This document shows, piece after piece, positions 5,906 through 14,900 of a stretch of DNA of 64,000 nt. The position numbers were made by a program, and so were the translations under genes. This DNA comes from Mytilus galloprovincialis (taxonomy: Eukaryota > Mollusca > Bivalvia > Mytilida > Mytilidae): the NCBI RefSeq assembly GCF_965363235.1, contig NC_134846.1, forward strand, positions 31,010,218 through 31,074,217, in the 5' to 3' direction. Within the stretch, counting starts at the first letter, position 1. Every line of letters starts with the position of its first letter. The notes under the pieces are model-generated. The model ran no database searches, was not told the DNA's origin, and saw nothing but the letters and a program-made list of their open reading frames with translations.

Positions 5906-8900
5906 GTAAATATGATAAAAATATAAAATGTTTTAAAAACTATCTCAAATTATCTGTAAAATTGAATTGCATGACAAGGTCTAAAATTTATAATTAAGAG
6001 ACAGAGGCAAGAAAAGCTCGGCGCAATATACATAACTTTGCATTTGTACTCGCTATCACATTTTGAGGTTCTCTTTTCAACACATATGATCGATGGATTG
6101 ATAGTTGGTGTGAAACACTGTTAGTGTTTCTGTTGTTTCGTTGTTTTCATCTTAAAAGTGATGTGTTTACCTCAGTTTTATTTTGTAATCCAGATTTGTT
6201 TTCTCTCAATCGATTTATGACTTTTAAACAGAGGTATACTACTGTTGCCTTTATTAATGTAGTCGAACGTAGTACTTTTATTATAATATGATAGATCACA
6301 ATTTTTGGAAAATGAATCATCATGCATACCATGATAAAATGTTGTACGCCAGACGTGTGGTTCGTACATGAAAGAATCATCAGTGACGCTCATATCAAAA
6401 TATTTATAAAGCCAAACAAGTACATAGTTGGAGAGCATTGAGGATCCAAAAGTTCTAAAAATGTGTGCCAAATACGGCTAAGGTAATCTAATCCTGGGAT
6501 AAGAAAATCCTTATTTATAAAAATTACTACATAATTGATATTCATTTCAACACCGAAATGCTGACTACTGGACCTAGTACCATTAAAGTACGAAGTTGAA
6601 AAACAATATCCTAAATTTCGAAAGGTTGGTGACATATAGCTAAATCCTCCTGAATTGACTTTATATACAGTATTACTGACAGTCAATCAACCCTTGTCTT
6701 GATCATGTTAATTTTGATACCTATATATTTAACGAGAGGCAGAATTATTTACGATACAAAAGATGATGTTTTATATCTTATTGTAAGTTGTCCGTTTTAA
6801 GTTGGTGACGCCTGAAGCTGATTTCTGTTTTTTTGAAAAGTACCCAATTTCCATTCTCAATTTTAAGGTTATTTAATTTAATTTTGGATGTAACACGTCT
6901 TCTTATTGGCTTATGTTGTTTTGTTTATCAGCTCATAGATGTAATTAAGTCATGTGAACGTGACGTCGTCAACGTTTTTTCATGGTTTTCTCTGGTTTAA
7001 AATGGAATTTAGAATTAAATTATAAGAAATAATTGTAATATTTTTTCTGTCTATTCGAAATAACATCAAAAATGTGGTGCACACTTTAAAATAACCCGCT
7101 ACGCTACGCGGGTTATTTAGTGTGCACCACATTTTTTATGTTATTGCTTCATAGACAGAAAAATATTACAGTCATTCCTCTAACATATATAGAGTTCAGA
7201 TAAAATTGAACAAAACACTTATGATTTATGGGGCATCTTTATAGATATTAACATGTTGTCCTCATGAAGGTTTTTCTTCGCATCAAGTTTTGTAAAGTAT
7301 TTAGTTTTAAGCTGAACGATTTTTCATCGAGAAGAATTTAAACGATCATGTCCAATTAGACTGCATATAGTTATACAGTGAAACCTTGCGAAACAGAATC
7401 CAGTATAAAACGAAAACCTGTATAAAACAGACATGTTCTTAAGCACCGTCATATCAATTTGTATGCGTTGTGAACGTGATAAAACCGAACAAAATATTTA
7501 GTCCCGAAGAGGTTTGGTTTAAAAGGTTTTACTGTATCTACTTATTTGTTTACCTGTCACTTTTTAGGAACTAGCTGGTGCATGTCAAGGCCACGACTGT
7601 AAGCTCAATGAAGTTTGCATGCCAAACGGGACAACCTACTATTGCTTTCCATGGACTCAACCGTTTGCCAAACGTAGTAAGTTTACTGTATTATAAAAAT
7701 CGTGTATGCATAAAAAAAGAAATTGTGTATCAAAACATCAAACAAAACATAAAATAAATGAGGAGGTCCAGTTAGACCCCTTTTTGGCCCCAAAATATAG
7801 GTGTTTTACAAAATTGTTTGAATGTAATCTTTTAGTTAATTTTTGGAAAATATAACGCTTCTGCTACATAGATATGGGCTGTGTTTGACAATACAATGCA
7901 CATGTATCGGGTACTAGCATCATTCAGTCATGCTAAATTACTGAAATCTTCACAATTTTAGCATTTTAGTTAAATTCAAGACGGTTTCCGTCTTAAATGA
8001 AAGTGCGTTCCTTCTTAATATTGGACTGTAAGTTGTATTTGATGGTAGTACATAATATATATATAGGTTGAGGATGATGCGGCCACTTTCATTTTTGACA
8101 AAAAAATGCTAAAAGAAAGAACTTGTGTATCAAAACATCAAACAAAACATAAAATAAATGAGGAGGTCCAGTTAGACCCGTTTTTGGCCCCAAAATATAG
8201 GTGTTTTACAAAATTGTTTAAATGTAATATTTTAGTTATTTATTGCAAAATAGAACGCTTCTGCTATATAGATATGGGCTGTGTTTGACAAGTGGCCGCA
8301 TGTGCGTTCCTTCTTAATATTGGACTGTAAGTTGTATTTGATGGTAATACATAATATATATATATATATATAAAGGTTGAGGATGAACACGGATTCGGCC
8401 ACTTTCATTTTTGACAAAAACTATCTGAAAAGCGACATTGTAAGGCATATTTGATAGATTTTTCATATTTAAGCTTGAATCGGAGCGTTTTTAATGACCA
8501 AATCAGTTAAAATCTTTCAAATAAACTCATTGAATCAACTGAAATAGACACTTAAGTGTTTAAAAAGTGTCCAAAATCTTTCGTCAGATGAAACCTGAAA
8601 TTTGAGGCCAAAACTGGCCCTTAACGGACCTACTCCTTTAAATCACCAAGTTTCCATATATAGTGGAGCGGCGGAGCAGACAATTTCAGAAATTTAAATT
8701 ACCTAAATACCTCATGGACTTTTAATAGCTCGTTGGAAAGCTGAAATCGTGTACTTTTTGAAAATAGGTGTCGTCAATATGAAAGCTGGTACCATTATGC
8801 CGAAAATCAAGGTCAAAGGTCATCACTTAAAAAATCCTATTTTCATCTCGAGAAACAATACCATTGATATTTTTCAAAATTAATAATCTATTCAATAAAT

Positions 8901-11900
8901 TAAATGAGTATTACTATGTATCAATGTCTTAGTTCATACAACTTTGTTTTTTTATTTGGACTTGACGTCAAAAGAACGTTATATTTAACTTTTTTGAAGG
9001 TAGTCCGTGGTATACAAATTTTAAAGCCTAATAAAAACCAGTAGCAAAATAACCTTGATATTTCACCTCGACAAATAGCATTTCTTAAATACTTCAGGAA
9101 AAAAGTGTTTAAAAGAGTATCCGAAATGCATAGTTTATAAATAAAACAATAAAAATGTGCAGCCGTGCTAAATTTCCTTTCAGTTTTGAAGGATAAGACA
9201 TGTCACTGAGTTTTCCTTAAATGAACTTTCTCAATACAAGATACCTTTTGATATAATATAGATATTGGAGTGGTAAACTACACAATGAGAGCAAGCATTT
9301 TGTAGAAATTATTCAAACATTAAGACGTGAACGTTAATTTTGGTACTAGTATCTATGATGAGTTTAATTTCATAAAATTGAAACGTGGGACAAAAAACCC
9401 ATAATAAACCAAAATAAAACTATCAAATATTGTAACAAAAACTATTTTCATGATATTTCATCTGTGTCATCAGCTATGTCAGCGGATACTGACTGCACAT
9501 AAATCAGTGCAGGGAAGACCCTGCTCCTTGAAAACACATGCTTCCTGGCATGCTTTTTTCCCCTTTCACGAACAAATAAGATCTTGTAGAAAGTCTGATG
9601 ACATTTGTCCTTCAAAGAAAACTGGCTCTAACTTGTCATTTTGTGCAGTTTTCAAACCAAAAGCACATGGGGAGCCATTATTTAGGTTGGCCAAATTTGC
9701 CGACACCCAAACTTTGCTTTGCCAGATTGCACGCAGTACGTGTTGTTTTAAACGGATTCACATGGCGGAAGCTTTATAAGACTTTTATCTTTATTGATAG
9801 CCAACTGATGTCTCAGCAAATTTAAATCGTTGTGACATTTCTTAAATTTGTACTTTGAGTCGTATAAAGCAGCAACAAACCCCTAGCAGCAACTACCGCA
9901 CTATCAACATCATCTTGTGTTAAGGCTACAAGATTACTGAAACGGCTTGGTTTTAATCTCAGGAGGTTGAATACTGACTTTTTACCGATTCCAAAAAAAC
10001 TTGAAGTGGAATCACACCCACTCAGAACATGAACGACCGGCAGAATACCGGTGACAACTGGGTCAATAGATGAAACAATGTCGTGAACTGGTATAAAACG
10101 TCTATTATCCTTCAAGCTACCTATTGAACCAGTTTGAACCCATAATTCTTTTGTATTTTTAAGCATTGGGTAGAAATGTTCTAGTTGGCAACATTGCTTC
10201 TGACATTTCCAATGATGCTTCGTCATTTGCAGGATAATAATCTCCAGAAATGTATACATTTTCCATTTTTTTTGTCTTAATATTGAGGCGGCTGCATAGA
10301 GTACATGCATATCGGTTTGTTCATTGGTTTTGGTGGAGCTACATGTACTCAAGTCGGCTTTTATCTCAAGCAATTCTAATTCTGCTTTGATGCTATTAGC
10401 TGCCTTAACAGCGTCGCCAATGGAAGTGTCGCTAGCAAATACAATACTAGATTTACCTTGTCCTTGTTGAGCAAAAAATACAATTGCATCCTTGTAGTGC
10501 TTCTCAAGTTTAGCCTTAAGCTTGGAGGAATTACAGTAGGTCTTACTTATTTTATCAGGTAAAAAAGACTGGTACATTGTCAAGAGTGATGACAATAGAA
10601 GAGACTTTTTGTTACAAATGAGGTCTCTGTCTATTATTCCAACCACTCTTTCAAATGCCAAATCATACGCTGATTTATCATTTGAATTTGGTCTATATGC
10701 CAAGTATGTAGTCAGACATGCTGCATGATACACTGCTTTATTGAGCAAATTCTCTTTCTCTATTCGATCAATCATTTCAGCGTCGCATGCTCTAATAGCA
10801 GCATCTTTAAGATTGGCTAACCGTTCAGCGGATGAAATGGTATGTAATGTTTTCACCCTTTTATGTGACATTTTTCGGCAAATAATACACTTTGATGTAT
10901 CGAGAGGGTGATCATAATTTCCAGGCACCAAAGAATTAGAGAAATCGTAATTTATATCTGGTGTTTCCTTTTCAGCTGAAGAACATGCTACTGCTTTTAA
11001 ATTATGTTTACTTGTGTAGCTTTTAAAACATGATCTATGGTACCTAAATACGGGTAATTTACTAGATATTTCATTGCAGAACTCATCAAAAAAACTGAAC
11101 AAATCATCACGTCTCTTTGCTGCAGCATTTATCAGGCTTTTTCTTCCAAATTCCGTTGATGTTATCAAATTTTCATCATCAACAGAATTGCAGATAATGC
11201 AATTGTCAACACCAACTTCCACTCTCCTTTTTTTGGCATTCGGAGGGACTAGTTTTAATGAGACTGATAAATTGTCCATTTGATGAACTAAGAAACAAAT
11301 CAAACACACCTGAAAACCAAACAAACCCTACAATGATATTCACTTTTCCCGTTGAAATCAACAAAATCTAATACACAACAATACCAAACAATATAAATTA
11401 ATCACAAAGCTTCGGAAATTACAAAATGAACAAGAAATATGCTTGAAAACGACTACAATCAACCTTCGAAAAATTGCTGAATGTTGGACTATAAATAGAA
11501 ACCACAACAATGTCGGTAAATTTGTGACAAATATTCGGACTTCAAATCTCAATAAAAAGCCGATATTTAGCCAAATATTTATCTTATAAAGAATTTACTG
11601 CAAAAAGTAAATCGAGTCGATTGAAGAATTATACGACGGCTTTATTGTTGTGACTTTAAAGTACAACTATACTGCAAGTGCAAATAATGCTAGGTGAAAA
11701 ACGATGATTTTTCACTGTTATTTTCAACCATTTTCAGATGCATTGTGCTCTCCATATAGGACTTTTTAAAAATGCTCTTAAATTGTATGCAGTTCAAGAA
11801 TAACTATATTTACCAATTTCGTTCACAAATTATTTTTTAGAACGTGTTTGATATGAAATATGAGTACCGAATCAGCAGTGGGGTATACGATGCAAGTTGG

Positions 11901-14900
11901 GTAACGTCGGGCTTAAATTAAAATATTGTTTGTTTGCAGTTTACCGACCGACCCTTGAAAATCCTCCCGACTGTGAAAATTTTATTGCTTTATATTTGAA
12001 GATTTTTTTTTAATACTTCTATTGACGCGATCCAGAACTTTGGGTCCTTTCCAGAAATGATTTAAAGTCTGGGTCAATTACGCATTTCAATTTCGGTTTT
12101 TCTTAGCTTCGCGTCAAGCGTTCATGTAACAATTTAACGATAAAGCACATGGAAATTGTTTACAGGTATCCATGAAGTCACGGAGGAGTACTTTATTACA
12201 TAATAATAACACAAAGACACACATTATTGAACAAAGAATGCTCGCAGGTACTGAAAGCTAGTTCAAAGCCGCATTTTCAACTAATAGATAAGCCATGTGA
12301 TTATGGACTTTCCGAATTGATTTTCCTCTGAGTTCAGTATTTTTGTGATTTTACTTTTTACGTTGTCGTCTCGTGTCAATTTTAAGACAGATAACAAACA
12401 AAAAAGTTTATTAGTAAACTGTTTATACAGATTCAGGCACATGTAATGATGTGTGATGATATCATTGACATTGATGCAGCGGATATTCATAACTGACACG
12501 ATAACCATTCTGTCTCAAACAAATCGGGTACAGAATCTGTGGAGCCTGACTTTATGGAACCAATTTCAGTGGTTATATAATTCGACAGCAGCTTGAAGTA
12601 TGGCATATTTTCTACAAATCGTTGTGAAGACGACAAAGATGAAACCACTCCTCCGCGACTTAAATCTTCATGGATATCTGTAAACACGCCTGTACGGAGG
12701 AAGCACAGGCACTTGTTTCTATCCATTGGAAGACCCACTATCAACGTATATTTACGAGAAAGTACCCAACTACTTTTTTTCACCTCTCCGCTTAAAACCC
12801 TTATTTCTCTGTCAATTCAGTCTCAAATTTTTTGTTCCATACACCATTCGATTCATGAAAAGTTTTTCTTTCAAGTGATATGCATTGTATTTTCCCTTAG
12901 AGTACCCCCTCGTAAATATACGTTGATAGTGGGTCTTCCAATGGATAGAAACAAGTGCCTGTGGGAGGAAGGGCTCATTTGAAATGTTAATGGATATAGA
13001 TCATGCCAAATCAATAAGAAGCAACCCTAACTACACAAAGATGTAGAGAAAATGAATGATTAGCTTGAAAAATAAATATACTCTCTCTATATTAAATCTA
13101 TCTTCGATTGCAATGAGTATGCTCCTTTAGGATAAGGGGGGCTGCCCCACTCATTGCAATTATTCTCTTTCTTACAATATTAAATATACCCAAACTGTGT
13201 GGCCTGTGTGAATTCAATTAAAACATGTCCTTAGGAGCTATGCTGCCAATTTTTTTTATGCATTAAAAACATTTCAGTACAGACCATTTACTTTTAATGG
13301 GGTGCTATGGATTTCACCCCAAACTTTAGATTTCTTTGGTTTTCTTTAAAGCCTGGCAAAAATATAACCTTATCACATATAATTAAATATTGTTAGAAAT
13401 ATGAAAACAGTCGAATGTCTTAATACTTTTTTTTCAAGTTGCCTTTTTTTCAATTGAGGAAGATTCAATGGTTATTTTTTTTTTTTATTAAAAATACACT
13501 CTTTAATACATTGTCTTGTAAATCTTTAATATCTACATTTTTCTGATGAAAATACTCTACTCATGAAAACATTCTAGTCAAGAAGCATACATGTCTGAAT
13601 ATATTTCTTTAAAACAGTTCTAGTCATAATGACATTCCTTGTTTATAAGTGTTCCAGTATTTAATAATTATACCATATTTTATGTCATAAATTGGATAAT
13701 GACACTATGTTAAAGTTTCAGTTTTGGTTAAAAAAAAATTTATCTGAAAATGCCTGTTCATTTGATGTTGGTTTTCAGCATGTCCAGTGTTTGTTGTTTT
13801 AAAATGTTTTTTTTTTTTCTTCACAAGAAACTTGGTTTAGTGTAACTGTTTGTTTAAACTGTATTTTGGCTGATAAAATAAAATATTTTTCCTACCTACC
13901 GACCCTTCAGTCTGAAGGTACAGTCGGAAAACTGCAAACAAACATATTTTTAAGGTTGACCTCAGTTAAGACTATTTTTAACGTCATTTGTACCACATTT
14001 TATTTTGACGACAAACATTTTTCAGAAGTTGAATAATCGATAGACATTTTAAGCTATTAAAATCCCATGAGGTATTTAGGTAATTTAAACTCGTTAACTA
14101 AGCGACTTTTTTAACTTTCGCCGCTCCACTAATATAAGCTCATTGTAGAAAATATATTAATTTTATACTGTACAAGCTTTAGAAACAACTTTTGCGGTGA
14201 CTTACTTAATCATTTTTCTTATAGACTTGACACTTGTTTTGGACTTTTTAATACTTTGAGAGTCACACAGAGACCAAAAGCAATTTCTATTAAATTATTC
14301 AAAGATGTGATGTCAACGTTTACAGTGATCTATAATAAAATGCACCATAGAAGCTCCACTAAATGCATGGTCCAGGAGAAACAAGTCCGGCTAGAATTGT
14401 ATTTTTTAGAATAAGAAACTGTAATTAGTTTAGACGATTGCTATTTGGTTTGCTGGTATACAATTATCATGATTATATAACTTTCCTTTATATTGTCAAA
14501 AGAGGCAGATGATATAAAGAAAATACTCAAAACTTAAAAGTCGATACGAAACCTTACGCGGAAACGGCACAAACAAAGTTATGAGGAGACACTCCGTAAA
14601 TTGTATGGACACCATCACGAATTGTGTCTCTGTCTTAACTAGCTAATGACATTTTTACCACGTCTTAGATTTTTGTTTGCCATTAACGTCGTCTGGTCTT
14701 TTTAGTACTGTTATACCACTGTCCCAGGTTAGGGGGAAGGTTGGGATCCCGCTAACATGTTTAACCCCGCCACATTATTTATGTATGTGCCTGTCCTTAG
14801 TCAGGAGCCTGTAATTCAGTGGTTGTCGTTCGTTTATGTGTTACATATTTGTTTTTCGTTCATTTTTTTGCATAAATAAGGCCGTTAGTTTTCTCGTTTG

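Follow-up and report, generated by a model that had tools for sequence, protein, structure and literature searches.

Between positions 8661 and 14131 of a 64,000-nucleotide stretch of Mytilus galloprovincialis DNA (contig NC_134846.1, positions 31,010,218 to 31,074,217; hereafter the window, meaning the whole stretch analysed) lies an interval closed by inverted ends that carries, on the minus strand, an open reading frame (ORF) with paired Cys/His modules. We read this interval, with a probability of roughly 0.8, as a copy of an AcademX element (a lineage of DNA transposons within the Academ superfamily) that is non-autonomous, carries an internal deletion and has received a second, unrelated element as an insertion. 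References for AcademX within the Academ superfamily are Kapitonov and Jurka (2010) and Kojima (2020). The features of the locus are as follows:

8658–8660: left copy of a 3-bp target-site duplication (ATA), from flank comparison
8661–8673, plus strand: left terminal inverted repeat TAGTGGAGCGGCG, 13 nt, from the sequence and a genome-wide count
8693–8730, plus strand: left subterminal inverted block, 38 nt, from an inverted-repeat search
9497–9598, minus strand: DNA encoding a Cys-rich tail, in a different frame from the listed ORF and broken by a stop, from its translation compared with relatives
9822–11324, minus strand: remnant ORF, 500 residues from a TTG, with an N-terminal part holding two C-x2-C...H-x3-C modules, a frame-shifted stretch and the last part of a FEN1/XPG-like region (GCD...GIGKK)
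10179–10181: junction of an internal deletion of about 3 kb, with one extra T at 10180, from blastn against longer copies; identical in four other copies
11909–13958: nested 2.05-kb insertion, missing at the equivalent place in the full-length and short relatives compared (blastn)
14052–14089, minus strand: right subterminal inverted block, from an inverted-repeat search
14119–14131, minus strand: right terminal inverted repeat, the reverse complement of TAGTGGAGCGGCG, from the sequence and a genome-wide count
14132–14134: right copy of the 3-bp target-site duplication (ATA), from flank comparison

An earlier note on this DNA, made from the sequence alone, had placed inverted ends at 8661 and 14131; both coordinates are exact, and both ends, of the TAGTGGAG type, belong to one element. 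The subterminal block that the note had described is also present, at 38 nt rather than 40, its two copies (8693–8730 and 14052–14089) being 95% complementary. The note had further seen the element flanked by ATATA. A flanking duplication does exist, and its length could be judged from 20 elements that we inspected, 17 of which, having both ends exact, were kept (L042, L044 and L045 were dropped). A duplication of 3 bp fits all 17 pairs, one of 2, 4 or 6 bp fits none, and one of 5 bp fits a single pair, the window copy. Because 3 bp fits throughout and 5 bp in the window alone, the ATATA of the window is most readily explained as ATA adjoining TA-rich sequence.

The ends are those of a dispersed and mobile family. 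The genome that contains the window spans 1.38 Gb in 331 contigs. It has 161 occurrences of the 13-nt end (85 forward, 76 reverse), against 0 forward and 1 reverse for a reversed-pattern control. Among the matches listed (100 of 161), to which all pairing counts for this end refer, 34 of 37 convergent neighbouring ends lie no more than 16 kb apart, as against 0 of 54 in other orientations. The 34 pairs span 117 bp to 15.5 kb, with 13 at 3.1–3.7 kb and three at 6.37–6.42 kb, and a match to the window's ORF falls inside 25 of them. Moreover, the joined flanks of the insertion at L048 lie in a repeat, and 23 of the 40 rows found with them run continuously over the junction, at 70–95% identity, with no element there; the other 17 comprise the two flanks of L048 itself and 15 rows that match no further than the first 74 bases. 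Related empty sites, whose search the earlier note had proposed, thus exist for this insertion. The shortest pair, at G000:C3:108635979-108636095, consists of two inverted 13-nt ends 117 bp apart and is possibly a minimal fold-back copy.

The same type of protein is found between similar ends in a second family. The L058 protein is 38% identical to the window's ORF over residues 17–338, and its element has ends reading TAGTGGAGTGACA at 879 and, reversed, TAGTACGGTGACA ending at 7659, the same at 10 of 13 positions. TAA flanks both sides, a 3-bp duplication in this one copy read at both ends, and a perfect 27-nt subterminal inverted block shares AAATACCTCA with the window's block. One end each was seen at L056, where it reads TAGTGGAGTGACA, and at L057, where it differs from TAGTGGAGTGACA by one base; second ends were not found at these two loci. 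The TAGTGGAGTGACA 13-mer occurs 184 times in the genome against 30 for its control and is thus less specific than the window's end. Among the matches listed (100 of 184), convergent neighbours lie within 16 kb in 7 of 24 cases, against 2 of 69 for other orientations, both of the latter in one tandem array, and in each of the seven convergent pairs the enclosed sequence matches the nuclease region. At G000:C1:89542553-89542687, TAGTGGAGTGACA stands three times in the same orientation at a spacing of 61 bp, as a small tandem array. Taken with the 25 of 34 pairs enclosing an ORF match and the empty sites related to the L048 insertion, the second family bears out the suggestion of the earlier note that this protein family travels as a DNA element with terminal inverted repeats.

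The window copy is a shortened transposon that is not self-sufficient. By blastn, 8661–10179 and 10181–11908 are collinear with 6.4-kb copies (L039–L041), about 3 kb between the two segments is absent, and 11909–13958 is extra. At the protein level, residues 1–344 and 369–472 of the window's ORF match longer copies as two pieces, with 1.8–3.0 kb between them in six of the loci and 8.2 kb in one. The deletion junction, extra T included, is identical in L047–L050 (a single mismatch across 161 aligned bases, found in L048 and away from the junction), so that one deletion is common to five copies at different sites. Since these copies share the junction and each has its own 3-bp duplication, it is likely that the short subfamily was mobilised in trans. 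The earlier note had described an element encoding a FEN1/PIN-like protein instead of an evident DDE transposase. This description is not supported and reflects the deletion, because about 3 kb retained by longer copies is gone from the window copy; the lost middle region may be a DDE domain.

What the window copy lacks can be read from its longer relatives, which have coding sequence for about 1,600 residues; open frames of 1,625, 1,634 and 1,573 residues occur in relatives of other families (L058, L059 and L060). An alignment of seven proteins, of which P0001 is without part of the middle and several are without the N-terminus, shows C-x2-C...H-x3-C modules at the N-terminus, followed by a conserved middle, then a nuclease-like part and finally a tail rich in Cys. 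The middle region has many invariant acidic residues (D and E), and its motifs include TIDGK, DQQLYA, LGGFH and SDM..EK. Judged by these sequence features, it may be an RNase H-like DDE/D core. No relatives were found in viral contigs (queries A2 and A3) or in prokaryote genomes (query A1).

In the nuclease-like part, the motifs IRDGM, VFDRYD, EEADTR, DTD and GCD.TS..FG.GKK are invariant in all six aligned proteins (P0001 left out), and their order is that of retrieved FEN1s. The latter were defined by motifs alone: a pattern scan gave at least 120 stretches, of which 80 loci were listed, 65 had a motif-bearing ORF and 45 passed two further motif filters, 44 of these coming from records titled as archaea and one from Chloroflexi. 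An hhalign comparison of slice A2 with these 45 gave an E of 0.0068 and a score of 28.4, the alignment covering the GCD/helix region alone and leaving the other acidic motifs unaligned. As controls, a score this high was reached by one of 150 column shuffles (29.3), the reversed alignment gave 14.2, and segments of the same protein lacking the GCD region gave no more than 22.5; in global mode only 22 columns aligned, at a chance-level score. The match lends modest support to a FEN1 link. Pfam XPG did not match the nuclease-like part. A single-sequence structure model of the window's C-terminal part, which retains only the last part of the region, had a mean pLDDT (predicted local distance difference test) of 30, and we therefore make no claim as to its fold. 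The FEN1/XPG resemblance, which the earlier note had suggested as a possible FEN1-like fold, is supported by the ordered motifs of the longer relatives, with a profile match that is weak and partial.

These features suggest a scheme for transposition. The full-length protein would bind the element ends through its zinc-finger-like modules, its Cys-rich tail or both; the DDE/D-like, RNase H-like middle region would cut and join; and the FEN1/XPG-like region may trim flaps or process the other strand, at the ends or at the target. Deleted copies that retain the ends and the subterminal blocks would be moved in trans by the full-length protein.

Several results weigh against our interpretation of the locus. 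The FEN1 profile match is weak and limited to the last part of the region, and the match of the middle region to Pfam DUF6589 is below cut-off, the E being 0.0095 for a single member out of six. No convincing or above-cut-off match came from searching the window's ORF, three longer ORFs and slices A2 and A3 against Pfam, from searches of NCBIfam and PHROGs, or from a search of PDB sequences with P0003 and slices A1, A2 and A3. In the window's own family, four 6.4-kb copies were read (L039, L040, L041 and L043), and their coding sequence is broken into two or three frames, of which the longest has 1,303 residues; L042, itself shortened, has 1,197. Nine of the 34 end pairs are without a listed match to the window's ORF, and the junction of the window's own joined flanks is crossed by 1 of 40 rows, by 18 nt only. 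The nuclease of Academ elements is of the XPG type, a statement that we did not find in the literature searched on Academ and XPG nuclease.

Among the alternatives, the one that survives best holds that the FEN1/XPG-like flap nuclease itself cuts the ends, or acts obligately with the end-cutting enzyme, in a protein with no conventional DDE core whose middle is structural or DNA-binding, so that mobilisation proceeds by structure-specific cleavage. That the middle region has no convincing match by sequence to a DDE family or structure (Pfam, PDB sequences) speaks for such a mechanism, as does the invariance of the nuclease-like motifs in all six proteins. Against it, the many invariant acidic residues of the middle are what is expected of a catalytic domain, and DDE integration usually yields short duplications of fixed length. 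Academ is, moreover, listed among the superfamilies with a DDD/E transposase in PMC9587614. On balance, we consider a nuclease acting in place of a DDE core unlikely.

It is less probable still that the 500 residues encoded in the window form a protein with a function of its own, such as a repressor made by the deletion subfamily. The amplification of that subfamily, with five copies carrying the junction, and the frame of the window copy, open across the junction, would suit such a role. In L049 and L050, however, the frame changes from one side of the junction to the other, and the window's frame is open only by way of frame-shifted sequence: the residues immediately before the junction come from sequence that longer copies also have but that is read here in a shifted frame, and the ORF ends early, in a frame that differs from theirs. 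Because of this frame-shifted stretch and this ending in another frame, the ORF is a by-product of damage and not a compact protein, and a gene with a true 500-residue product was rejected on the frame evidence. As the earlier note had stated, the ORF has the paired modules and carries HVLSGCDSTSSFFGIGKKS; the Cys-rich tail that it also assigned to the ORF lies outside it, in another frame.

A CACTA/EnSpm element, for which the 3-bp duplication and a right end reading ...CCACTA might be taken to argue, is a shade more doubtful than that. CACTA elements start with CACTA and finish with TAGTG, whereas the orientation here is the opposite, TAGTG...CACTA, and the three longer ORFs have no Pfam match of the CACTA kind. 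The orientation of the ends rules this identity out, given that the duplication boundaries are right, as the 17 of 17 pairs indicate. Finally, that the two ends stem from two unrelated insertions around an ordinary gene, the outcome by which the earlier note would have had its own proposal fall, is practically without credibility: we found no point in its support, and it is refuted by the collinearity of the interval, minus deletion and nested insert, with several copies at other places in the genome, bounded by the same pair of ends and each with a 3-bp duplication of its own.

The nested insert, a second element unrelated to the host transposon, has inverted ends of its own at 11918–11956 and 13915–13953. 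Genome-wide, there are 493 occurrences of its 20-nt end motif, TTTGTTTGCAGTTTWCCGAC, against 0 for the control, and many convergent pairs about 1.5 kb apart are seen among the matches listed (100 of 493). A 62-nt inverted repeat, 95% complementary, lies within it at 12704–12765 and 12902–12963. Outside the transposon, the left flank at 8481–8640 is a dispersed repeat: 37 of 40 matching rows begin at query position 1–4 and stop at 159–173, with 91–95% identity, one spans positions 3 to 198 at 88%, and two are the locus itself. Farther to the left, a 63-nt direct repeat (8003–8065 and 8302–8364) is 98% identical.

The reading of the locus as a deleted AcademX copy links a protein family, described in the earlier note as large and uncharacterised in invertebrates, to a transposon whose ends and 3-bp duplication are defined. 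Members of this family that turn up in gene sets may thus be transposon genes rather than host genes. We know of no test of which of the putative catalytic regions performs which step of transposition, and the short, apparently trans-moved subfamily offers natural substrates for assigning steps to the two.

How does the system compare with those already known? With FEN1/XPG nucleases it shares, besides the order of the acidic motifs, the G-x-D...G-I/V-G-x-K helix motif. The spacing differs: VFD and EEAD are 104–107 residues apart here against a median of 72, and EEAD and GCD 95 against 84, in the 39 of 45 FEN1s measured; in addition, the nuclease-like region is here part of a much larger transposon protein. 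Residues 599–914 of the L058 protein show a weak similarity to Pfam DUF6589 (E of 0.051 with the whole protein, 0.0095 with a slice) that falls under the curated cut-off. In two match lists, both lower bounds, no DUF6589 place of the genome was noticed inside an element of the window's family, and the literature searched gave no mention of the domain. DUF6589 has at least 110 matches in the genome, some in open frames of more than 2,100 residues, and may mark another large transposon group.

AcademH elements belong to the same superfamily in the literature and differ in having a helicase and duplications of 9–10 bp, according to PMC10045372, as against 3 bp here; a Pfam scan of the three longer ORFs reported no helicase family. 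The RecQ helicase mentioned for Academ in PMC3627910 likewise fits AcademH rather than the window's element. For AcademX, duplications of 3–4 bp are given, the two lineages' duplication lengths being related to the nuclease and helicase they encode, so that a nuclease-carrying kind of transposon is already known (PMC10045372). Academ has undergone a bivalve-specific amplification and is common in bivalves, with 100 curated elements of mean length 5,565 bp (PMC10294476). The present elements resemble AcademX in having terminal inverted repeats that bound the coding region (in the window's family and in the second), a 3-bp duplication in 17 of 17 pairs (3 or 4 bp in AcademX, PMC10045372), a putative nuclease within the element, a length of several kb and an abundance in bivalves (PMC10294476); this is a likeness by description. 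Since both architecture and duplication fit that description, AcademX is by far the best filing, and the window's element very probably belongs to it.

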